NCBI GenBank assembly: GCA_002385665.1
Contig: DGDX01000093.1
Span: 1-30,868, forward strand
Length of the DNA stretch: 30,868 bases
Direction: 5' to 3'
Origin: Firmicutes bacterium UBA3941
GTDB taxonomy: Bacteria; Bacillota; Clostridia; Caldicoprobacterales; UBA3941
Every line of letters begins with the position of its first letter. The first letter of the stretch is position 1. The translations under genes were made by a program, and so were the position numbers. Under the pieces are notes generated by a model. The model searched no databases. It was not told the origin of the DNA and saw nothing but the letters and a program-made list of their open reading frames with translations. Positions 281-10,762 of this stretch are shown here, piece by piece.

Positions 281-1903
281 ATGCGTATAGGCAGCAGAAG
301 GGTTAGTAAAAGGTTTTTCATTATTTTGCTTGTTGTTATATTATTGATTGCAACCAGGATCTATGCATCAAACAAGGTTTATCGTAGTGTGACATTGGAG
401 GCGGGGATAGATGTCATCGATCTATCTCATTTTATAAAGAGCGATAATGTAGAAGGCACTTTTGTAACGGACATGTCAACCGTTGATACGACTAAGCCGG
501 GTCAATATGAGATAAAAATACGCATTGGGAGAAGGGTATACACATCAACTCTCAATATAGTGGATACCATCCCTCCTACAGCTGAGGTGGTTTATCAGAA
601 AATACCCTTTGGGAAGACTGTTGAGGCAAGTTCCTTTGTAAAAAATATAGTTGATGCAACAACGGTTGAGATTAGTTATTTGGAAAAGCCCGATTTCGAA
701 TTTATAGGAGATCAGGATATTATTATAGTTTTAAAAGATTCAGGGGGTAATGAGACCCAATTAACAGCCAAGCTTTCTATAGGGATGGTACATGAACTGG
801 TAGAAGTTGGTGTCGGCACAGAATTACTGGATATTGGACTATTCTTAATGGATGAAAAATTTACGGGCGACTTCGTTACCGATGTCTCCGACATAGATCT
901 GAACCATCCGGGTGAGTATGACATTGTGATCAATTGTGATGGAAGGAAATTTACATCGAGACTACAAATAGTTGATGACATACCACCCAAGGCCGATGTT
1001 GTGCAGCAGGAAATATGGCTTGGCGATGAGTTGGATGCTCAAAGCTTCGTAGAGAATATCGAGGATCACTCTGAAGTGACAGTTTCCTATAAAGAAAAAC
1101 CCAATTTCAACAAGGTGGGTTCTCAGGAAGTATCCATTCTTCTGGTTGATACTAGTGGCAATCAAACAGAACTAAAAGCACCTCTTGTAATAGTGGAGGA
1201 TACAGAACCACCGGTAATCGTAGGGGACAACGAAAAGCTGGTTTATGTAGGAGAAAAGGTTTCATACAGAAAACACGTCACCGTCACCGATAATAGAGAT
1301 GAAAATGTGGACCTAAATATAGATAGCAGTGCAGTAAATCTTAAGAAGCCGGGCACTTATCCGGTCACATACAAAGCAACGGATTCCTCAGGCAATACTG
1401 CAACAAAGACTATTAACTTTATAGTAAAGGAAAAGCCCAAAAATTATGTGAGTGAAGATGAAGTTAATGTTTTAGCGGACCAAATTTTGGCAAACATTAT
1501 TAAAGAGGGTATGTCACAAAGGGAAAAGGCAAGGGCAATATATGATTGGACTAGAGCCCATATAAAATATGTTAACGACTATGAGAATAATACAGATTGG
1601 GTAAGGGCTGCCTACGATGGGATAAAGAATGCTAAAGGAGATTGTTATGCCTTTTTCGGAACTGCTAAGGCACTTTTAACCAGAGCAGGAATAGATAATT
1701 TGGACATCGTTAAAAAGGGTGGTGGGCATTACTGGAGTATGGTCAATCTGGGGAACGGTTGGTATCACTACGATACAACTCCTCGAAGAACCGGCGGAGA
1801 ATTCTTTATGTTAACCGATGCCCAGCTTGAAGCATATTCCAAAAAGAACAAGAACAGTCATGTATGGGATAGAAACAAATATCCCGCTACCCCAGAAGAA
1901 TAG
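281..1903 (+). CDS. Membrane-anchored transglutaminase-like protein with repeated extracellular modules
   Basis: 540 residues. A hydrophobic segment at about residues 11-28 after a basic N-terminus is a signal anchor or uncleaved signal peptide, so the rest lies outside the cell. Two copies of a roughly 138-residue module follow (about 34-170 and 173-308), each with FVTD..., PG.Y...I, D.IPP and VSYxEKPxF-type blocks. Next is a DUF5011/Ig-like repeat (about 310-385, with the typical PGTYPVTYKATDSSGN block). The C-terminal transglutaminase-like domain (about 400-540) has a candidate triad of C455 (GDCYAFF), H483 (GGHYWSMV) and D498 (WYHYDTTP). Such domains can crosslink, transfer to, or cleave amide bonds; which applies here is not visible. 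It opens a probable operon, 34 bases before the racemase gene. The domain call is firm; the substrate is unknown. Confidence 0.85.
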   Translation: MRIGSRRVSKRFFIILLVVILLIATRIYASNKVYRSVTLEAGIDVIDLSHFIKSDNVEGTFVTDMSTVDTTKPGQYEIKIRIGRRVYTSTLNIVDTIPPTAEVVYQKIPFGKTVEASSFVKNIVDATTVEISYLEKPDFEFIGDQDIIIVLKDSGGNETQLTAKLSIGMVHELVEVGVGTELLDIGLFLMDEKFTGDFVTDVSDIDLNHPGEYDIVINCDGRKFTSRLQIVDDIPPKADVVQQEIWLGDELDAQSFVENIEDHSEVTVSYKEKPNFNKVGSQEVSILLVDTSGNQTELKAPLVIVEDTEPPVIVGDNEKLVYVGEKVSYRKHVTVTDNRDENVDLNIDSSAVNLKKPGTYPVTYKATDSSGNTATKTINFIVKEKPKNYVSEDEVNVLADQILANIIKEGMSQREKARAIYDWTRAHIKYVNDYENNTDWVRAAYDGIKNAKGDCYAFFGTAKALLTRAGIDNLDIVKKGGGHYWSMVNLGNGWYHYDTTPRRTGGEFFMLTDAQLEAYSKKNKNSHVWDRNKYPATPEE

Positions 1904-1937
1904 CTATTAAATTCCTGACGAAAGAGTTGATCAATAA

Positions 1938-2654
1938 ATGAAACTAGGGGTTATTGGCGGGTTAGGGCCTATGGCAACGGCATATTTTATGGAACTCATA
2001 GTAAATATGACAGATGTACAAAATGACCAGGAACACCTGGAGATGATAATATTCAATTGCCCTTCTATACCCGACAGGACAAAATATATATTAGGAAAAA
2101 GTAATGAAAACCCTGTTGAAGCCATGGCATTAATAGGAAAACAGCTTGCGGAGCTGGGAGCAGATTATATTTCTATTCCATGTATAACAGCACATTATTT
2201 TTATAATGATCTGGCCAGGCTTATTGATGTCCCCGTTGTAGATGCTGTGACTGAGACGGCGAATCATTTAAAGGAGCTAGGTGTAAAAAAAGTGGGGATT
2301 CTTGCCACCGATGGGACTTTAGCTGGTGGCTTATTTCAAGGCAGCTTATCCACTGTCGGAATTGACTATATCATTCCCTCCAACTGTGCACAAAGGGGAG
2401 TGATGAAGATTATTTACGATGATATCAAGGCGGGACGCCCTGTCGATATAGCACTGTTTAACCAAATCTCCAAGGGATTACGGGACAGCGGTGCAGAGAT
2501 TATTATTTTGGGTTGTACTGAATTGTCACTAATAAAAAGAGACTTTTCTATAGGCGCAGGCTATATAGATGTGATGGAGGTACTGGCCAAGGCATCTATA
2601 CTTTACTGCCATAGGCCATTAAAAAAACAATACTATAGTTTGATTTCAAATTGA
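1938..2654 (+). CDS. Aspartate/glutamate racemase family protein
   Basis: 238 residues, the usual length for the cofactor-independent Asp/Glu/hydantoin racemase superfamily. The N-terminus MKLGVIGGLGPMAT is the family signature. The two catalytic cysteines are in place: C82 in SIPCITAHYF and C193 in LGCTELSL. The family interconverts L- and D-amino acids, most often aspartate or glutamate, by a two-base mechanism in the cytoplasm. The sequence resembles the YgeA/RacX-type broad-specificity group more than MurI. The gene starts 34 bases after the transglutaminase gene and ends 10 bases before the adenylation gene. It probably supplies a D-amino acid to that enzyme, which is an inference from position. 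The ribosome binding site is weak. Confidence 0.85.
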   Translation: MKLGVIGGLGPMATAYFMELIVNMTDVQNDQEHLEMIIFNCPSIPDRTKYILGKSNENPVEAMALIGKQLAELGADYISIPCITAHYFYNDLARLIDVPVVDAVTETANHLKELGVKKVGILATDGTLAGGLFQGSLSTVGIDYIIPSNCAQRGVMKIIYDDIKAGRPVDIALFNQISKGLRDSGAEIIILGCTELSLIKRDFSIGAGYIDVMEVLAKASILYCHRPLKKQYYSLISN

Positions 2655-2664
2655 GGGTGAGGAC

Positions 2665-4191
2665 ATGCAAACTAATATACTGGAATATCTGGATTATACC
2701 GTAAAGCGGGTTCCTGATAAGATCGCATATTCCAATGGTGAGACTGGGATAAGTTTTCGGGAGGTTTACGATCAGGCAAGGGCTATAGGTACCTTTTTGA
2801 ATCGCCAAGGCGTTTACAAAGAACCAGTGGTTGTCTTTATGAACAGGCATCCCAAAGCCATCGTAGCTTTTTATGGGGTAGTCTATGGCGGTAACTTTTA
2901 TGTGCCAATTGATGAGGAAATGCCCCGTTTTCGTATCGAGCTAATTTTAAAAAATCTAAATCCCAGGGCAATAATATGCGATGAAACAACCAGAAATATC
3001 GTAGAAACCTTCCAATATGACGGGGGAATATATCTCTATGACGATATTGTCAAAACCCCTATAGACGAAGAAGTTATTGGTAGGATACGACAAGCTTCAA
3101 TAGATACAGATCCTATTTATGTAGTATTTACATCTGGATCGACGGGAATACCAAAGGGGGTTGTAGCTTGTCACCGCTCAGTAATTGACTATATTGAGAA
3201 CTTATCCGAAGTCTTGGGTTTTAATGAGGATACGGTCTTTGGGAATCAAACGCCTTTGTATTTTGATGCCTGTTTAAAGGAACTATATCCCACCCTAAAG
3301 TTTGGTTCAACCGCCTATATTATTCCAAAGAACTTGTTTATGTTCCCCATTAGGCTTGTTGAATACTTGAATGAACATAAGATCAACACCATATGCTGGG
3401 TGGTTTCCGCTTTGACAATGATATCGGCCTTTGGTGTGCTGGACAAGACAGTCCCTAAGTATCTCCATACTGTTGCCTTTGGTAGCGAAGTCTTTCCAAT
3501 GAAGCAGTTTAATCTTTGGAGAAAGGCCTTACCAAATGCTAAGTTTATTAACCTTTACGGGCCTACGGAAGCTACGGGTATGAGCTGTTATTTTATAGTG
3601 GACCGTGAGTTTAATGATGATGAGGTTCTACCCATAGGCAGACCCTTTAAAAACACCGATATTATATTGCTGGATGATAATAATCGGATACCTCCCAAGG
3701 GTGAGGCAGGAGAAATATGTATAAGGGGGACATCCCTAACCCTGGGTTATTACAACGATCCGGAAAGGACCAAGGAGGTATTTGTACAGAATCCGCTAAA
3801 CGATGCTTATCCTGAGCTCATATACCGGACAGGGGATCTAGGCAGATATAACGAAAGAGGAGAATTAATGTTTATATCCCGCAAGGATCACCAGATTAAA
3901 CATATGGGTCATCGTATCGAATTAGGAGAAATTGAATATAACGTTAATTTGATAGAAGGCATTAAGAGTGCCTGTTGTATTTATCGGGAAGAAACCGAAA
4001 AGATAGAACTCTATTATGTTGGTGATATAGATTCGAAGGACTTGGCCACTGCCTTAAAACAACGGCTTCCTAGGTATATGGTTCCAAACATTATAAGAGC
4101 CTTGGATGAGATGCCTTTAACCGCCAACAAGAAGATAGATCGAGTTTTCTTAAAAGAACATTATGCAAAGAACAAAAGGGGGACCAAATAA
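2665..4191 (+). CDS. Stand-alone amino acid adenylation enzyme (DltA-like)
   Basis: 508 residues, the size of a free-standing adenylation domain such as DltA. Core motifs appear in order: A3 FTSGSTGIPKG (about 152-165), A5 NLYGPTEAT, A7 YRTGDLGR, A8 (GHRIELGEIE) and A10 LTANKKID with catalytic lysine K490. The enzyme should activate an amino acid with ATP and load it on the carrier protein encoded just downstream. In DltA a cysteine before GEV in the pocket is tied to D-alanine choice; here the block reads AFGSEVF, so G273 stands in its place. The pocket also has D201 (the usual amino-group anchor) and K205. Substrate is therefore probably not D-alanine; an acidic amino acid is possible. Start is ATG with a GAGG site upstream. 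Confidence 0.87.
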   Translation: MQTNILEYLDYTVKRVPDKIAYSNGETGISFREVYDQARAIGTFLNRQGVYKEPVVVFMNRHPKAIVAFYGVVYGGNFYVPIDEEMPRFRIELILKNLNPRAIICDETTRNIVETFQYDGGIYLYDDIVKTPIDEEVIGRIRQASIDTDPIYVVFTSGSTGIPKGVVACHRSVIDYIENLSEVLGFNEDTVFGNQTPLYFDACLKELYPTLKFGSTAYIIPKNLFMFPIRLVEYLNEHKINTICWVVSALTMISAFGVLDKTVPKYLHTVAFGSEVFPMKQFNLWRKALPNAKFINLYGPTEATGMSCYFIVDREFNDDEVLPIGRPFKNTDIILLDDNNRIPPKGEAGEICIRGTSLTLGYYNDPERTKEVFVQNPLNDAYPELIYRTGDLGRYNERGELMFISRKDHQIKHMGHRIELGEIEYNVNLIEGIKSACCIYREETEKIELYYVGDIDSKDLATALKQRLPRYMVPNIIRALDEMPLTANKKIDRVFLKEHYAKNKRGTK

Positions 4192-4192
4192 A

Positions 4193-4417
4193 ATGGAAGA
4201 ATTATTAGAAATTTTAGAGGAAATGCATCCCGATGTGGATTTTAGAACTTGTGATACTTTAATTGATAGTAACATACTGGATTCCTTTGATATAATTGCT
4301 TTGATATCAGAGATCAAGATGGAATTTGGAGTTACCATACCACCGGACGAAATAATACCGGAGAACTTTAATTCCGCCAAGGCAATGTATGAACTAATTG
4401 AGCGTCTGTCGGATTAG
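4193..4417 (+). CDS. Acyl/aminoacyl carrier protein (DltC-like)
   Basis: 74 residues, close to the length of DltC. S31 in the LDSFD motif is the likely phosphopantetheine attachment site, within a small acidic helical protein. I start it at the ATG at 4193, which has a GGGGG-containing binding site 8-12 bases upstream, instead of the longer in-frame ATG at 4163 that overlaps the previous gene and adds a basic peptide unlike carrier proteins. It should carry the amino acid activated by the upstream enzyme to the membrane acyltransferase encoded downstream. It could in principle carry another acyl group, but its position next to an adenylation gene makes the aminoacyl role most likely. Confidence 0.85.
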   Translation: MEELLEILEEMHPDVDFRTCDTLIDSNILDSFDIIALISEIKMEFGVTIPPDEIIPENFNSAKAMYELIERLSD

Positions 4418-4435
4418 GATTAACAGGGGGATAAT

Positions 4436-6028
4436 ATGCTGTTTGCATCTTATGGTTTTATAGCTTTTATAGCAATTTTATTCATAGTATATTACCTTAT
4501 TCCCAAAAAATATCAGTGGATGTTGCTTCTATTAGCCAGCTATGTTTTTTATTTGTTTGCCGGCCCTAAATATATACTTTATATTGTATTTACAACCGTT
4601 TCCACCTATATAATTAGCTTAAGGATTGATAAGCTGAATCAAACTCAAGCCCAGTATTTGGCCAAGTACAAGGAGGATCTGTCGAGGGCTGATAAAAGGG
4701 CATACAGGGATATGATGAAAGGTAGGATGCGGAGATGGCTAGTGGCTTGTCTGCTATTGAACTTTGGGATTTTGGCCGTAGTAAAATACTCTAACTTTGC
4801 CATAGCTAACTTGAATGCTATATTTCAAGCCTTCGGAGGGCAAGGCCAGTTATCGTTTTTAGATATAGCCCTGCCTATGGGTATTTCTTTCTATACCTTT
4901 CAAACAATGGGCTATATTATAGACGTATATAGGGGTAAGTACCCACCGGAGAAGAACATTTTCAAACTCGCTTTGTTTGTATCCTTTTTTCCCCAGCTCG
5001 TGCAAGGGCCAATTAGTAGATTTGATGACCTATCCAGAACGCTCTTCAAAGAGCATAGCTTTGAGCATAGGAATTTCAGCTTTGGCATGCAGAGGATAAT
5101 GTGGGGATATTTTAAGAAATTGGTCATAGCGGACCGTATACTGGTTGCTGTCAATACCATAATACGTGATCCGGAAGTATACCAAGGGGCTTTTGCTTTG
5201 GTAGGGATGCTATTTTATGCATTCCAACTTTATGCCGATTTCACGGGTGGAATCGATATTACCATAGGTATAGCCCAGGTGTTGGGTATAGAGGTTAAGG
5301 AGAACTTTAACAGACCTTATTTTTCGAAATCCATAGCGGAGTATTGGAGAAGGTGGCATATTACTCTGGGCACATGGTTTAGGGATTATTTATTTTACCC
5401 TATCTCCGTCAGTAAGCCTATGATGAAGGTGTTTAAGTTCACAAGGGAACGTTTTGGCGGTGCAATAGGTAGGCGTATACCTGTATATATATCTACTATT
5501 ACCGTCTGGTTTGTAACCGGTATTTGGCATGGTGCCAGTTGGAACTTTATAGCCTGGGGTATGGCAAATTGCGTGGTAATTATTATATCCCAGGAATTGG
5601 AACCATTTTATACTTGGTTCCACAGCAAGTTTAAAGTCGGGAATACCTTTGGCTTTCGATTGTTCCAAGTGTTACGCACTGTACTTCTCATGAGCTCAAT
5701 AAGAATGTTTGATTGTTATAGGGATGTACCTACCACCTTTAGAATGTTTGGCTCAATGTTTACGGTTTTCAATTACCGTGAGTTGTTCGGGGGAGCGCTT
5801 TTAGAACTTGGGCTGAGCATGGCAGACTATTGGGTCCTATTCATGGGACTTATTGCACTCCTTGGCGTAAGTCTTGCCCAGAGAAAGGGAAGTGTGAGAT
5901 TAAAGCTTGCCCAGGGATCTGATCTGCTTCGATATGCGGTATATTCTTTTATGTTCATTATAATTCTTATTTTTGGAGCCTATGGCGTAGGTTATGATTC
6001 CAGTCAGTTTATTTACAATCAGTTCTAG
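4436..6028 (+). CDS. MBOAT-family membrane O-acyltransferase (AlgI type)
   Basis: 530 residues with many hydrophobic segments. It carries the MBOAT landmarks: LPMGISFYTFQTMGYIIDVYRG, FPQLVQGPI, YADFTGG, an RRWHITLGTWFRDYLFYP block with H308, and GIWHGASWNFIAWG with the presumed catalytic H365. This is the family of AlgI, PatA/PatB and DltB, which pass an acyl group from a cytoplasmic donor to an acceptor outside the membrane. Its length and wording are closer to AlgI-type proteins than to DltB, which is near 400 residues. It starts 18 bases after the carrier gene with a GGGGG site and likely uses that carrier as donor. The acceptor, such as a wall or envelope polymer, cannot be read from sequence. 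Confidence 0.9.
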   Translation: MLFASYGFIAFIAILFIVYYLIPKKYQWMLLLLASYVFYLFAGPKYILYIVFTTVSTYIISLRIDKLNQTQAQYLAKYKEDLSRADKRAYRDMMKGRMRRWLVACLLLNFGILAVVKYSNFAIANLNAIFQAFGGQGQLSFLDIALPMGISFYTFQTMGYIIDVYRGKYPPEKNIFKLALFVSFFPQLVQGPISRFDDLSRTLFKEHSFEHRNFSFGMQRIMWGYFKKLVIADRILVAVNTIIRDPEVYQGAFALVGMLFYAFQLYADFTGGIDITIGIAQVLGIEVKENFNRPYFSKSIAEYWRRWHITLGTWFRDYLFYPISVSKPMMKVFKFTRERFGGAIGRRIPVYISTITVWFVTGIWHGASWNFIAWGMANCVVIIISQELEPFYTWFHSKFKVGNTFGFRLFQVLRTVLLMSSIRMFDCYRDVPTTFRMFGSMFTVFNYRELFGGALLELGLSMADYWVLFMGLIALLGVSLAQRKGSVRLKLAQGSDLLRYAVYSFMFIIILIFGAYGVGYDSSQFIYNQF

Positions 6029-6037
6029 GAGGGTGTT

Positions 6038-7111
6038 ATGAATAAAAAGGGGATAGGACTTAAAATTGGGACGGTTTGTTTTTTATTTATAACATTATGG
6101 TTTTTACAAAAGCTGCTGGTACCAAAGTATGTCACTGCCATAGTCGAAGGCTCCTTAATTGAAGAATATTATCATGAGAAGACAGACCATGATGTGATTT
6201 TTATTGGGGATTGTGAGGTTTACGAAAACATTTCACCTATTACCTTATGGGAGGAATATGGAATTACCAGCTTTATACGTGGGGGTGCTCAACAGCTCAT
6301 ATGGCAATCATATTACCTGTTAGAGGAAACATTAAAGTATGAGAAGCCAAAAGTGGTTGTATTCAACGTATTGGCTATGAAATATGATGAACCCCAGAAG
6401 GAAGCCTATAATCGTCTAAATCTGGACGGAATGAAGCTTTCTAAGGAAAAAATAAAAGCTGTAAAGGCTTCTATGATGGATGATGAGAATTTGATTGAGT
6501 ATATATTTCCATTGCTTAGGTATCATTCCAGATGGAGTGAGCTGACTAGTGAGGATTTCAAGTACCTCTTCAAAAAGGACAAGATTTCCCATAATGGTTA
6601 CTACATGAGGGTAGATGTTGAACCCGTGAAATCTATACCCAAAGGGAGAAAGCTCTCAAATTACCAGTTCGGGGAAAGATCCTATTACTATTTAGACCGT
6701 ATGGTAGAGCTATGTAAAGAAAACGACATAGATTTGGTATTGATGAAAGCTCCTAGCATATATCCCTATTGGTATGATGAATGGGATGAGCAAATGCGCG
6801 AGTATGCCAATAAACATGATCTCATGTATATAAACTTCCTGGATTTGATCGATGAGATAGGTATTGATTATAATGTAGATACTTATGATGCCGGTCTCCA
6901 TCTGAACTTATATGGGGCAGAGAAGATGGCAGTATATTTCGGTGACATCTTAAGGAAGACTTATGGTTTGGAAGACAGAAGAGGGGACGAGGAGATAAAA
7001 AAAGTATGGGATGAGAAGGTAGAATTTTATTATAGTATGAAAGAAAAGCAGTTGAGGGAGCTCGAGGAATACGGCTATCTCAAGAGTCTGGGTGTAGAAA
7101 AACGGGAATAG
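6038..7111 (+). CDS. Membrane-anchored SGNH-like protein, AlgJ/DltD-like partner of the MBOAT
   Basis: 357 residues. A single N-terminal hydrophobic segment (about residues 8-27) anchors it, leaving an extracellular SGNH-like domain. Block I reads FIGDCEVYENIS, with C59 where the family usually has the nucleophilic serine. The C-terminal block reads YDAGLHLNLYGAEK, giving D284 and H288. The tail (about 315-357) is charged and probably helical. Proteins of this class (AlgJ, AlgX, DltD, PatB) work with an MBOAT to finish acyl transfer to the polymer. It begins 9 bases after the MBOAT gene with an AGGAGGG site, so the two are very likely co-translated. The Cys for Ser change may keep activity through a thioester or mark a different chemistry. 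Confidence 0.78.
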   Translation: MNKKGIGLKIGTVCFLFITLWFLQKLLVPKYVTAIVEGSLIEEYYHEKTDHDVIFIGDCEVYENISPITLWEEYGITSFIRGGAQQLIWQSYYLLEETLKYEKPKVVVFNVLAMKYDEPQKEAYNRLNLDGMKLSKEKIKAVKASMMDDENLIEYIFPLLRYHSRWSELTSEDFKYLFKKDKISHNGYYMRVDVEPVKSIPKGRKLSNYQFGERSYYYLDRMVELCKENDIDLVLMKAPSIYPYWYDEWDEQMREYANKHDLMYINFLDLIDEIGIDYNVDTYDAGLHLNLYGAEKMAVYFGDILRKTYGLEDRRGDEEIKKVWDEKVEFYYSMKEKQLRELEEYGYLKSLGVEKRE

Positions 7112-7190
7112 GTTAAGGCTAAAAACCTAATACGGTTAAGCGTGATGATATTGTGGTATCTCATTATGGAATTTAAGGGAGAGAATAGAG

Positions 7191-7778
7191 ATGAAAAGGT
7201 TTTTTATTTTATCAATGGTATTGCTCTTGTTACTAGCTGCCTGTAGTAAGGGTGGGAATACATCCGGTGATGCTGCTGGGGATATGCCTGTAGATGGTAC
7301 TAAGGGAAATTCACAGGATATTCAAGAGGGTCAGAACCCAGCGGACAGCCAGGAAAATCAGGAAGTTGATCAAGAGAAGGGATATGAATTTGTATTTAAC
7401 GGTGTAACCATAGCGATGCATTCTAAAATGGAACCCATCCTTGAGAAATTGGGTGAGCCCATGGAATACTTCGAAGCGGAAAGTTGCGCATTACCTGGTA
7501 TGGAAAAAATTTATACCTACAGTGGTTTTGAAATACTCACCTATGAGAAAGAAGGAGTCGATTACGTATTGTCAGTGGTAATTCTTGACGATAGCGTTTC
7601 AACCAAGGAGGGTATCTACCTATATTCCGATCTGGATAGCCTGATAGAAAAGTATGGTGATGATTATACCAAAGAACTCAACACCTATAAATACGAATCA
7701 GGGCAATCCCAACTGGTATTTTTAGTGGAGGATGATGAGATAACTTCCATTGAGTATTTAGCAACTATGGAACAATAA
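7191..7778 (+). CDS. Lipoprotein of unknown function, end of the surface-modification operon
   Basis: 195 residues. The N-terminus MKRFFILSMVLLLLLAAC is a lipoprotein signal with lipobox LAAC and the modified cysteine at about residue 19. A low-complexity linker rich in Gly, Asp, Gln and Asn follows (to about residue 62), then a compact domain of about 130 residues that starts GYEFVFNGVTIAMHSKMEPIL and ends SIEYLATMEQ. I do not recognise a named family. It lies 79 bases after the SGNH gene with no terminator between, and a terminator follows, so it is probably the last gene of the operon. A role as an outer-surface partner of the modification machinery is an inference from place only. Confidence 0.75.
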   Translation: MKRFFILSMVLLLLLAACSKGGNTSGDAAGDMPVDGTKGNSQDIQEGQNPADSQENQEVDQEKGYEFVFNGVTIAMHSKMEPILEKLGEPMEYFEAESCALPGMEKIYTYSGFEILTYEKEGVDYVLSVVILDDSVSTKEGIYLYSDLDSLIEKYGDDYTKELNTYKYESGQSQLVFLVEDDEITSIEYLATMEQ

Positions 7779-7811
7779 GTCGTCAGACATAACTATAATA
7801 AATATCAGATC

Positions 7812-7842
7812 AACCCCTATCTATGGAAAAGGGGTTTTTTTT
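7812..7842 (+). terminator. Intrinsic terminator after the lipoprotein gene
   Basis: AACCCC (7812-7817) pairs with GGGGTT (7831-7836) and is followed at once by a run of eight T. It closes the operon that began at 281. Confidence 0.8.
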
Positions 7843-7960: not shown

Positions 7961-10762
7961 GTGTCAAGGAAAATGACAACAAGGATGTTCATTTTTGGTT
8001 TAGTAACCTTGATATTCTTAGGGCAAGTATTTATATTTACTGATCAACTAAATGCCGCATCCTCTACTATTACCCAAACCTTACGCCAGGGCAGCAAAGG
8101 CGCCCAGGTAAAAATCCTACAAGAGAAACTAAATTCCCTAGGTTTTAATGCAGGTAAAGTGGACGGCTCCTTTGGGCCAAAAACAAAGGCGGCGGTGCTT
8201 GCATTTCAGAAGGCTCATGGTTTGGCGAGGGATGGAGTGGTAGGTCCGGCAACAAGGGCAAAGCTCAATTCAATTACACCAGCTAAATCCAAACCACAGG
8301 ATCCAAAACCAGAGTCACAAGATTCGGACTCATCACGTGCTAATAATATCCCACCTGTTACACAAACCCTTCGCAGAGGCAGTAAAGGAACGCAGGTAAA
8401 ATATCTGCAACAGAAACTCAATGCGCTAGGTTTTAACGTTGGAGGGGTGGATGGTTCCTTTGGTCCAAAGACACTGGCAGGGGTCCGCGCATTTCAGAAG
8501 ACCAATGGTCTTGCCGTAGATGGGGTAGTAGGTCCCGCTACCAGGGCAAAGTTGAATTCAGCAACCCCATCACAATCCAAACCCAGCGATCCTAAACCAG
8601 AGAACCCCAAGCCAGAAGATCCAAAACCGAAGAATCCACCTACGAAGGAAATACCACCTGTTACTCAGACCCTAAGGCGGGGCAGTAAGGGAACGCAGGT
8701 AAAGTATTTGCAACAGAAACTCAATGCGCTAGGTTTTAACGTTGGAGAGGTGGATGGTTCCTTTGGTCCAAAGACACTGGCAGGGGTCCGCGCATTTCAG
8801 AAGGCCAATGGTCTTGCCGTAGATGGAGTAGTAGGTCCCGCTACCAGGGCAAAGCTTAATTCAATTTCACCGACTAAACCAAAGCCCGAAGACCCGAAGC
8901 CAGAAAATCCAAAACCGGAAGACCCAAAACCGGAGAATCCAAAGCCGGAAACTCCACCTACAAAGGAAATACCGCCTGTTACCCAGACCCTACGGAGGGG
9001 TGACAAGGGTACCCAGGTGAGATACTTGCAGGAAAAACTGAATTATTTAGGATTTGATGTGGGCGAAGTAGATGGGTCCTTTGGTCCAAAAACATTGGCC
9101 GGGGTCCTTGCTTTTCAAGGGGCTTATGGATTAGCCAGAGACGGAGTAGTTGGCCCCGCTACAAGGGCAAAACTTAACTCGGCAACGCCGGGAACGGTTC
9201 CAAAAGAACCTGAGTATAAAGAGTTTGTACCGGAAAAAGGTCAACTTTCGGGTAAAACCATTATCCTGGATCCCGGACACGGGGGCATGGATTCTGGGGC
9301 AGCCTGGAACGGTAACCTGGAAAAGACATTTAACCTTGATATGGCCTTGAGGCTCAAACGAATGCTGGAACAAGCCGGTGCCAAGGTCCTTATGACCAGA
9401 ACAAAGGATGAGTATTCATATCTCTACTATAGAACTGCCTTTGTTAATAAATACATAGTGGATCTGGAAATAAAGGATCAGGAAGCCCAAAAGAAGGCAT
9501 TGATGGATGAAAAGAATGCTAAGACTGCTGAATCCCTAACTAAGGGTGAAGAACTGGATGCTAAGAAGAACGAATATATAGCTGTCCAAACCGCTATTAT
9601 CCAGCTTCAACCAAAGATACAAGCGAAAGAGGACGACCTCTCAGGTGCAGTGGCCAATTTAGAACAGCTAAATAGTAAATTAAATGCCTTGATTTTACAA
9701 ATGAATAACATGGGATATGAGTCCCTACAGGATTTAAAAAATACTATAGCCGGAATTGAAGTCCTTCTTAATACAATAAATGAGCTTAAAGGTGAGATAT
9801 CCGGTCTTAAAGCACAGATTGAATCCTGTGAAGAGGGATCAGAGGAATACTATATCCTGAAAGAATCCTTAGCAGAAAAGGAAAAAGACTTAAAGGATGC
9901 AGAAGGAGAACTATTCGAGTTGGCCAACGGAAGCTCATCCATTGACGAAGTAATAGCACTGTTAGGTGACCTTAAGAAGCTTAGCGATGACATTGAGAAA
10001 CAGGATGAAACCGTAACGGAGGCTGAAAAGGATGTTTCCAAAAAGCAATCCGAGCTGGATGTACTGAATAAGGATTTGAACAACCTTAAATCCAGCGAGA
10101 AGGCTATAGAGGATGAAATATCCAGGTTGGAAGACGAGATACCTAAGCTGGCGAAGGATATTGCCAATCTTGAATTAGAAATATCTGGAATTGAAATTCA
10201 GATTACTGACCTAAAGGATAAGGCAAGGCTATTGCAGAATAATCTAAACAATCCGACATTAAAATCCAGAACTGGTATCTATGTACCCTCCAGCACCAGC
10301 GGCGGTAAGAACATCATTAACAAAAAGCTCAAGGAAATCTTTGATCTTACCAGGGCAAAATACGATAATGATATGATTTTTATCGCTATACACTGTAATG
10401 CAATGGGTGGCGGCGGAACAACTACAGCTTCCGGAGTCCAAGTATATTATAGGGACAGCAGCTCCGACAACGGCTATGCAACAAATCAGAACTACTACAC
10501 GAACTATAACGATAACAAGCGCTTAAAGTTAGCCAAGGCTATGTTGAAGAATACCCGGGATAATACGGATTTCAAGGGAAGGTGGACTACACCCTTTAAG
10601 AAGGATTTTCATGTACTTAGGGAACAAAATCTACCGTCTGTCTTGATGGAGATTGGGTTTGTTAACAACCCAGACGATGTGAGACTATTAAATCAAGAAC
10701 GGACCCGAGAAAACGCTGCAAAGGGTATGTACTTGGGTATAGTAGAATATTTTACAAAATGA
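7961..10762 (+). CDS. Secreted N-acetylmuramoyl-L-alanine amidase with four peptidoglycan-binding repeats and a coiled-coil insert
   Basis: 933 residues from a GTG start with an AAAGGGGGTG site 5-8 bases before it. A signal peptide covers about residues 1-32. Four PG_binding_1 repeats follow (about 37-104, 133-200, 234-301, 340-407), joined by Pro/Lys/Glu-rich linkers. The Amidase_3 domain begins near residue 430: H440 (DPGHGG), E454 (NLEKTFNL), H811 (IAIHCNA) and catalytic E897 (MEIGFVNNP) form the zinc site. Between E454 and H811 lie 356 residues, far more than usual; about 500-765 is a charged heptad-like coiled coil. The enzyme should cleave the amide between muramic acid and L-alanine in the wall. 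It is flanked by terminators, so it is probably monocistronic. Confidence 0.92.
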   Translation: MSRKMTTRMFIFGLVTLIFLGQVFIFTDQLNAASSTITQTLRQGSKGAQVKILQEKLNSLGFNAGKVDGSFGPKTKAAVLAFQKAHGLARDGVVGPATRAKLNSITPAKSKPQDPKPESQDSDSSRANNIPPVTQTLRRGSKGTQVKYLQQKLNALGFNVGGVDGSFGPKTLAGVRAFQKTNGLAVDGVVGPATRAKLNSATPSQSKPSDPKPENPKPEDPKPKNPPTKEIPPVTQTLRRGSKGTQVKYLQQKLNALGFNVGEVDGSFGPKTLAGVRAFQKANGLAVDGVVGPATRAKLNSISPTKPKPEDPKPENPKPEDPKPENPKPETPPTKEIPPVTQTLRRGDKGTQVRYLQEKLNYLGFDVGEVDGSFGPKTLAGVLAFQGAYGLARDGVVGPATRAKLNSATPGTVPKEPEYKEFVPEKGQLSGKTIILDPGHGGMDSGAAWNGNLEKTFNLDMALRLKRMLEQAGAKVLMTRTKDEYSYLYYRTAFVNKYIVDLEIKDQEAQKKALMDEKNAKTAESLTKGEELDAKKNEYIAVQTAIIQLQPKIQAKEDDLSGAVANLEQLNSKLNALILQMNNMGYESLQDLKNTIAGIEVLLNTINELKGEISGLKAQIESCEEGSEEYYILKESLAEKEKDLKDAEGELFELANGSSSIDEVIALLGDLKKLSDDIEKQDETVTEAEKDVSKKQSELDVLNKDLNNLKSSEKAIEDEISRLEDEIPKLAKDIANLELEISGIEIQITDLKDKARLLQNNLNNPTLKSRTGIYVPSSTSGGKNIINKKLKEIFDLTRAKYDNDMIFIAIHCNAMGGGGTTTASGVQVYYRDSSSDNGYATNQNYYTNYNDNKRLKLAKAMLKNTRDNTDFKGRWTTPFKKDFHVLREQNLPSVLMEIGFVNNPDDVRLLNQERTRENAAKGMYLGIVEYFTK
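8406..8854 (+). repeat. Near-identical duplicated unit inside the amidase gene
   Basis: Bases 8406-8551 and 8709-8854 (offset 303) encode the second and third peptidoglycan-binding repeats and differ at only three positions by my reading. The first and fourth repeats are much more diverged at DNA level. This suggests a recent duplication or gene conversion. Confidence 0.85.
8885..8959 (+). repeat. 15-base tandem repeat coding a Pro-rich linker
   Basis: Five in-frame 15-base units encode PEDPK/PENPK-type pentapeptides between the third and fourth peptidoglycan-binding repeats. Shorter versions of the same linker lie near 8565-8640. Confidence 0.8.

Follow-up and report, generated by a model that had tools for sequence, protein, structure and literature searches.

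A putative carrier-fed, Dlt-like envelope aminoacylation operon of Clostridia with a cysteine at the SGNH nucleophile position

The contig DGDX01000093.1 of Firmicutes bacterium UBA3941 (assembly GCA_002385665.1), analyzed here over its whole length of 30,868 nucleotides (the window), carries on its forward strand a unit of seven genes. They encode a transglutaminase-like (TG) surface protein, an Asp/Glu-type amino acid racemase, a stand-alone amino acid adenylation (A) enzyme, a carrier protein, an MBOAT acyltransferase, an SGNH-fold transferase and a lipoprotein. It is very likely that this operon performs envelope aminoacyl transfer. On balance, we favor the more specific reading that the operon is fed by a carrier protein and aminoacylates the envelope as Dlt does, with another cargo and with thiol chemistry in its final step.

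The gene arrangement was followed in two sets of relatives that overlap in some genomes. The named-genome set (mostly Clostridia) holds the best 80 of at least 581 confirmed stretches, 50 of them with enough flanking sequence. The class sample consists of 391 genomes of the class of the source genome, which were searched with a profile made from 20 rows of the SGNH protein (the SGNH marker; strong matches are those of 450 bits or more). The marker matched 64 of these genomes at E 1e-30, and 48 of them, spanning 23 genera, gave strong matches; 40 loci were read (L135-L174), 37 with enough flank. The order TG-racemase-A-carrier-MBOAT-SGNH-lipoprotein was kept in 31 of the 50 well-flanked named loci and, minus the racemase (counted as present at 200 bits or more), in 12 others, for a total of 43. 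All 50 possess the MBOAT, the carrier and the lipoprotein, 49 the A enzyme, 49 the TG-like protein and 38 the racemase, whose place in the unit the first-pass annotation of this DNA had claimed. For the 37 class-sample loci the counts were TG 36, lipoprotein 31, MBOAT 30, carrier 27, A enzyme 24 and racemase 18. Three of the six lipoprotein misses are fusions with the SGNH protein, and in L135 the lipoprotein lies further off; searches of L142 and L153 found none. The arrangement is beyond chance, as the great majority of well-flanked loci repeat it and strong SGNH matches fall in 48 genomes of 23 genera. Its presence across Clostridia, proposed earlier as a check, proved to be wide in the class, far beyond close relatives. 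The system seems to be concentrated in this class, since in the phylum sample the marker appeared at E 1e-100 in only 3 of 398 genomes, all three of the class and one of them the source genome; the named loci also include members of Paenibacillus, Gottfriedia, Longibaculum and Stoquefichus. The culturable Paenibacillus glycanilyticus and Herbinix hemicellulosilytica are among the carriers of the genes.

Clustering of 942 flanking open reading frames (ORFs) from 120 loci revealed no recurrent partner, the commonest family (an ABC ATPase) adjoining 15 of the 120, and flanking genes were therefore rejected as a clue to the acceptor. In one locus an asparagine-synthase-type gene (PF00733; L135:10081-11922) lies between the SGNH and racemase genes. 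Asparagine synthetase was dropped as a substrate clue, as it is inside the cluster in L135 only and the other match (L097) is on the opposite strand.

The SGNH protein (6038..7111, forward strand as for all features below; membrane anchor by eye) had one domain match, to GDSL, at 18.3 bits and below the cut-off of 32.9. Its AlphaFold model (predicted local distance difference test, pLDDT, 92.8) has the SGNH fold, with PatB and DltD among the structural matches. The place of the Ser nucleophile is taken by Cys59 (codon 6212-6214) in 110 of 110 aligned SGNH proteins, whereas the weak relatives all have Ser in this column (17 of 17). The named-genome search used peptide patterns, one of them containing GDC, so its 80 loci are biased to Cys; the profile-only search of the class provides the unbiased test. 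There, all 48 strong matches carry Cys (30 from the alignment and 18 read separately), and all 17 weak loci carrying the site have Ser. The protein of L134 (G212), a C-terminal fragment located at the end of a contig, does not include the nucleophile site, and a simple motif search left 1 of 120 proteins unmatched. Asp281 and His288 do not vary across an alignment that holds 53 Cys and 7 Ser forms. This conservation makes it likely that Cys59 acts as an acyl carrier. Some SGNH homologues bear the precomputed label PF27429, which was not among the matches when the window protein was scanned with Pfam.

The MBOAT (4436..6028) matched PF03062 at 49.6 bits (cut-off 27) and two PDB entries, both DltB; against the DltB equivalog TIGR04091 it scored 140.8 bits, below the cut-off of 375. 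His365 is at least 97% conserved in 93 rows. The protein ends in a fused Tyr shuttle motif, FIYNQF (6008-6025), with Tyr527, and a Tyr hexapeptide of the form FIY[NS][QR]F is the C-terminus of all 93 MBOATs long enough to align. The class-sample variants FIYTRF and FIYVQF (L136, L139 and L140) differ in the fifth/sixth letters and keep the Tyr. According to a paper of 2025 (PMC12148441), in PatA and Dlt the MBOAT transfers its acyl group to the hexapeptide Tyr, which passes it on to an SGNH protein, and non-Dlt MBOAT-SGNH pairs work without a carrier protein; for PatB, an acetyl-Tyr peptide was supplied to the protein. A carrier protein together with a fused shuttle motif is a combination outside this paper's account of the other pairs. 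A further arrangement was seen in L190:1445-7707, where one MBOAT is followed by four tandem SGNH-like genes.

The A enzyme (2665..4191) matched TIGR01733 at 327 bits (cut-off 317) and the DltA equivalog TIGR01734 at 269 bits, far from the 559.85 required to call it DltA; its closest PDB relatives are adenylation domains of non-ribosomal peptide synthetases (NRPSs). A phylogeny against DltA had been suggested as a check, and when 51 hand-picked rows were placed in a tree, the two types formed separate clades, 35 operon enzymes in one (100/100) and ten DltA-like enzymes in another (99/99). The ten pocket positions (GrsA numbering) read DAKCAGLGMK in 55 of 61 A enzymes, and in 24 of the 26 strong A enzymes of the class sample; the other two read DARCAVLGIK. 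Such a near-invariant pocket suggests one fixed cargo in full operons. Asp235, which we take to hold the alpha-amino group of the substrate, is present in 60 of 61 (the remaining residue is an unread X). Position 239 is Lys in 59 and Arg in 2. Position 301, where Cys is presumably the mark of a D-Ala pocket, is Gly in 56 and Val in 5, and the pocket of Bacillus cereus DltA reads DLMTLCTVAK. The pocket is thus not D-Ala-like; use of D-Ala in a genome without another dlt operon is one of the two outcomes that the first-pass annotation had named as speaking against its own reading, the other being a neighborhood confined to close relatives. The NRPS code for glutamate, assumed here to be DAKDLGVVDK, shares DAK at positions 235, 236 and 239; we could not confirm this code. 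A string search of the literature gave no match for it, and the passages of PMC3630128 available to us did not give it. The pocket Lys, taken with the Asp/Glu-type racemase, makes an acidic amino acid the probable cargo.

The carrier protein (4193..4417) matched PF00550 at 25.1 bits (cut-off 20.8), as a phosphopantetheine carrier does, and the DltC equivalog model at 28.8 bits, below the cut-off of 68. Its phosphopantetheine Ser41 (DSFD; codon 4283-4285) is at least 97% conserved in 69 rows. The ORF opens at 4163, and translation probably begins at its ATG of 4193, directly behind the stop of the A enzyme.

Three clusters in other loci (L117:4794-10000, L120:4065-8556 and L131:5249-9566) have the A-carrier-MBOAT-SGNH layout with a Ser nucleophile and other pockets; their A enzymes are the nearest to the operon clade in the tree. 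The pocket of L117, DSKDMCIVDK, is close to the glutamate code that we assume and could not confirm, and its SGNH partner has Ser; if the cargo is acidic, this by itself need not imply Cys. Two of the three clusters read SMLYLALDIK; as this lacks Asp235 for the alpha-amino group, the cargo there may not be an amino acid.

The racemase (1938..2654) matched TIGR00035 at 217 bits (cut-off 93), the cysteate racemase (CuyB) model at 195 bits (cut-off 190) and also PF01177, and it aligns with the aspartate racemase 1jfl over residues 3-221 (E 3e-54). Cys82 (codon 2181-2183) and Cys193 (codon 2514-2516), which we take to be the catalytic pair, are each at least 97% conserved in 48 rows, as are Arg47 and Lys164. 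The acidic side chains of cysteate, Asp and Glu agree with a Lys in the pocket of the A enzyme. We lean slightly towards a cargo in the D form.

The lipoprotein (7191..7778; lipobox by eye, no Pfam family) has Cys99 (codon 7485-7487) in 76 of 76 sequences, in 49 of them as the sole Cys past residue 35, and 71 of the 76 have Cys in the lipobox column. In L137, L138 and L141 the SGNH protein ends in this same domain (E 1e-39 to 1e-42), which retains its Cys. Because the two genes are fused in these three genomes of one genus, the lipoprotein and the SGNH protein probably act together, and a hand-over from Cys to Cys, from the SGNH protein to the lipoprotein, is thinkable. In fold, the lipoprotein is similar to CAP-associated and DUF4309 proteins and, less closely, to the C-terminal part of TagH. 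The TG-like protein (281..1903; Ig-like domains, membrane anchor by eye) matched PF01841 at 35.2 bits (cut-off 23) and PF16403 at 43.3 bits (cut-off 27). It has the Cys-His-Asp set in Cys455 (codon 1643-1645), His483 and Asp498, at least 97% conserved in 61 rows. The transglutaminase-like superfamily includes proteases too.

Under the reading that we favor, the racemase would provide an acidic D-amino acid (D-Asp or D-Glu), which the A enzyme, judging by its conserved motifs, would adenylate and load onto the carrier. By analogy with the mechanism published for PatA and DltX (PMC12148441), the MBOAT would pass the residue across the membrane onto the Tyr of its own FIY[NS][QR]F. Cys59, which occupies the nucleophile position of the SGNH protein, would then accept it as a thioester instead of the usual Ser ester. 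The lipoprotein, a partner by virtue of the fusions, would work with the SGNH protein through Cys99 as an adaptor, an acceptor or the next carrier. Finally, the residue would be delivered to a surface polymer or protein, and the TG-like protein would act on the modified surface. The source genome (83% complete) has two LCP proteins and four sulfatase-family ORFs, one of them a 680-residue frame that is possibly LtaS-like; PF04464 was not found in it. The LCP and sulfatase-family genes are compatible with a teichoic-type polymer as acceptor and decide nothing. We think it unlikely that a full thiol relay operates on an acidic D-amino acid, from carrier thioester to MBOAT Tyr ester, Cys59 thioester, lipoprotein Cys99 and lastly an amine, which would yield an amide and not an ester, with the TG-like protein cross-linking through the free side-chain carboxyl or amine, and with the whole serving as the main aminoacylation route in many dlt-less Clostridia.

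Several observations weigh against the favored reading. The acidic interpretation of the pocket depends on assumed NRPS codes that we could not confirm. The racemase is missing, at 200 bits, from 12 of the 50 well-flanked named loci, five of which (L062, L083, L098, L099 and L103) contain ORFs of the racemase family with weaker scores, 139-151 bits. In eight class genomes the unit includes the A enzyme and lacks the racemase. Five of these genomes (G157, G098, G285, G140 and G083) carry a TIGR00035 racemase over the cut-off elsewhere, in G083 as a gene split by a stop, and in the other three (G105, G014 and G325) a genome-wide search at E 1e-10 found none. The glutamate racemase of peptidoglycan synthesis could provide D-Glu, were that the residue. 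The A enzyme was not detected in L050, which shares its contig with L161, or in L159; both have the carrier and the MBOAT. Moreover, ten genomes keep the TG-like protein, the SGNH protein and the lipoprotein without an adjoining A enzyme or carrier. In seven of these, all of one genus (L144-L149 and L151), the MBOAT is not beside the SGNH gene either; in six of them no relative of the A enzyme was found at E 1e-30, and the seventh (G085) has one elsewhere, with an internal stop. In L144 (3631-13699), the only one of the seven scanned for domains, a GT87 and three GT2 proteins replace the A enzyme, the carrier and the MBOAT, and there are three TG-like genes; one GT2-like ORF family is common to all seven loci. 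In the remaining three (L143, L150 and L152) only the MBOAT stands beside the SGNH gene, in two pieces in L143, and two of these genomes have no related A enzyme. From such genomes, the module of SGNH protein, lipoprotein and TG-like protein may take other cargo too.

This leads to the possibility, which we hold as a tentative alternative compatible with the favored reading for the full operon, that the Cys-type SGNH protein, the lipoprotein and the TG-like protein form a general surface acyl-transfer module, with the A enzyme, carrier and MBOAT as its commonest donor and glyceryl or other acyl groups used elsewhere. Besides the seven genomes without donor genes and the three with the MBOAT only, it draws on three of those seven (G085, G058 and G135), in which a separate MBOAT cluster with an FkbH-type protein (by eye) has no adjoining SGNH gene (L185:4096-7706, L186:6435-10055 and L187:6694-10293). 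The MBOATs there end in FIYA[RT]I, a carrier-like ORF is present in L185 and L187, and the clusters are possibly a glyceryl-type acylation system. Set against this, the parts occur together in the large majority of loci, with a pocket that hardly varies. Doubt may also attach to the SGNH protein itself, which has lost its Ser nucleophile and whose activity sequence cannot reveal: it might be a degenerate scaffold, with the MBOAT Tyr transferring straight to the acceptor and Cys59 carrying nothing. We consider this improbable, as a dead site would be expected to drift, whereas Cys59 is kept in every aligned protein alongside invariant Asp281 and His288, and a thiol is a competent nucleophile.

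It is similarly improbable that the operon is a diverged Dlt which replaces dlt in Clostridia and whose A enzyme takes D-Ala or some other D-amino acid that is small and neutral. The gene functions do correspond one-to-one with those of Dlt, and in the source genome, at 83% completeness, no DltA passes the cut-off and the operon's MBOAT is the only one. Matches to the DltA model above 480 bits occur in 17 of the 391 class genomes; 3 pass the curated cut-off of 560, and all 17 were taken as DltA-like because the next match down has only 356 bits. The SGNH marker is therefore the commoner (48 genomes against 17), and the two never occur in the same genome (2.1 expected). With P 0.10 this zero overlap is not significant, and we rejected mutual exclusion with dlt as a claim. 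In the phylum sample, DltA-like enzymes were found at E 1e-130 in 10 of 398 genomes. What argues against a diverged Dlt is the pocket, with Gly for Cys at position 301 and Lys at 239, together with the Asp/Glu type of the racemase and the separate clade of the A enzymes. The NRPS affinity of the A enzyme could also be read as production of a small peptide-like or amino-acid-containing metabolite, with no envelope modification. This is very improbable, because domain-model scans matched no condensation or release domain in any of the seven proteins, and an MBOAT with a Tyr motif, an SGNH protein and a lipoprotein are envelope parts.

The seven same-strand ORFs with small gaps reported in the first-pass annotation were all found where it placed them, with intergenic gaps of 1 to 79 bases when the carrier start is set at 4193. 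The single terminator that it described can be seen by eye at about 7812..7842 (AACCCCT, an 11-nucleotide loop, AGGGGTT and a T-run). It is absent from the output of our terminator scan, which covers loops of up to 8 nucleotides and showed no excess of terminators in the window (5 found, 5.4 expected). The families that it assigned to the parts stand, with the amendments that the SGNH-like protein has GDC rather than GDS and the MBOAT ends in FIYNQF; its account had not included the Cys nucleophile, the fused Tyr motif, the pocket Lys or the lipoprotein as a partner of the SGNH protein. The unit is preceded by the tail of a ligA-like gene (by eye) and followed by a gene that domain matches identify as an amidase with peptidoglycan-binding domains, and then by seemingly ordinary housekeeping genes (by eye). 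The amidase (7961-10762) has four such domains, and its Amidase_3 domain (matches at about residues 432-502 and 808-932) is interrupted by an inserted stretch of about 300 residues with matches to coiled-coil models.

Resistance to cationic peptides, the binding of enzymes and contact with the host are all governed by surface charge and wall acylation, which have been studied mainly through D-alanine. The cargo proposed here would be opposite in character to D-alanine, and gut and sludge digesters are among the sources given in the record titles of the named loci. A natural switch from Ser to Cys in an SGNH transferase would make the acyl-enzyme step directly testable. Our literature search, which covered titles and abstract openings with most subscription papers out of reach, found no account of the operon, of a Cys-type SGNH transferase or of MBOAT transfer of an acidic amino acid.

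Among known systems, the TIGR00035 racemases, including CuyB, share with the operon racemase both Cys residues and the overall sequence; the operon one sits within an envelope acylation operon. The clusters of L117, L120 and L131 share the four-part layout, and no TG-like or lipoprotein match was found within the stretch read. PatA-PatB and other MBOAT-SGNH pairs share the fused C-terminal Tyr hexapeptide and the separate SGNH protein. Unlike in that type, the operon MBOAT would be fed by an A enzyme and a carrier, and the operon SGNH protein has Cys where the relay has Ser as nucleophile. Dlt (DltA, DltC, DltB, DltX and DltD) shares with the operon an A enzyme, a carrier, an MBOAT, a Tyr motif and an SGNH-fold transferase in one operon. 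The two differ in the pocket, in the scores of the A enzyme and the MBOAT below the DltA and DltB cut-offs, in the SGNH nucleophile (Cys in 110 of 110, Ser in DltD) and in the Asp/Glu-type racemase, lipoprotein and TG-like protein that the operon adds. The Tyr motif of Dlt is on the separate DltX, whereas in the operon type the MBOAT itself ends in the motif (93 of 93), and no intergenic gap in the window's operon exceeds 79 bases. Model scores, pocket and tree support the original proposal of a Dlt-like pathway made from parts other than DltA, DltB and DltD. By the features tested, the operon is a variant of the MBOAT-SGNH relay that would be Dlt-like in its working, and not a member of Dlt.

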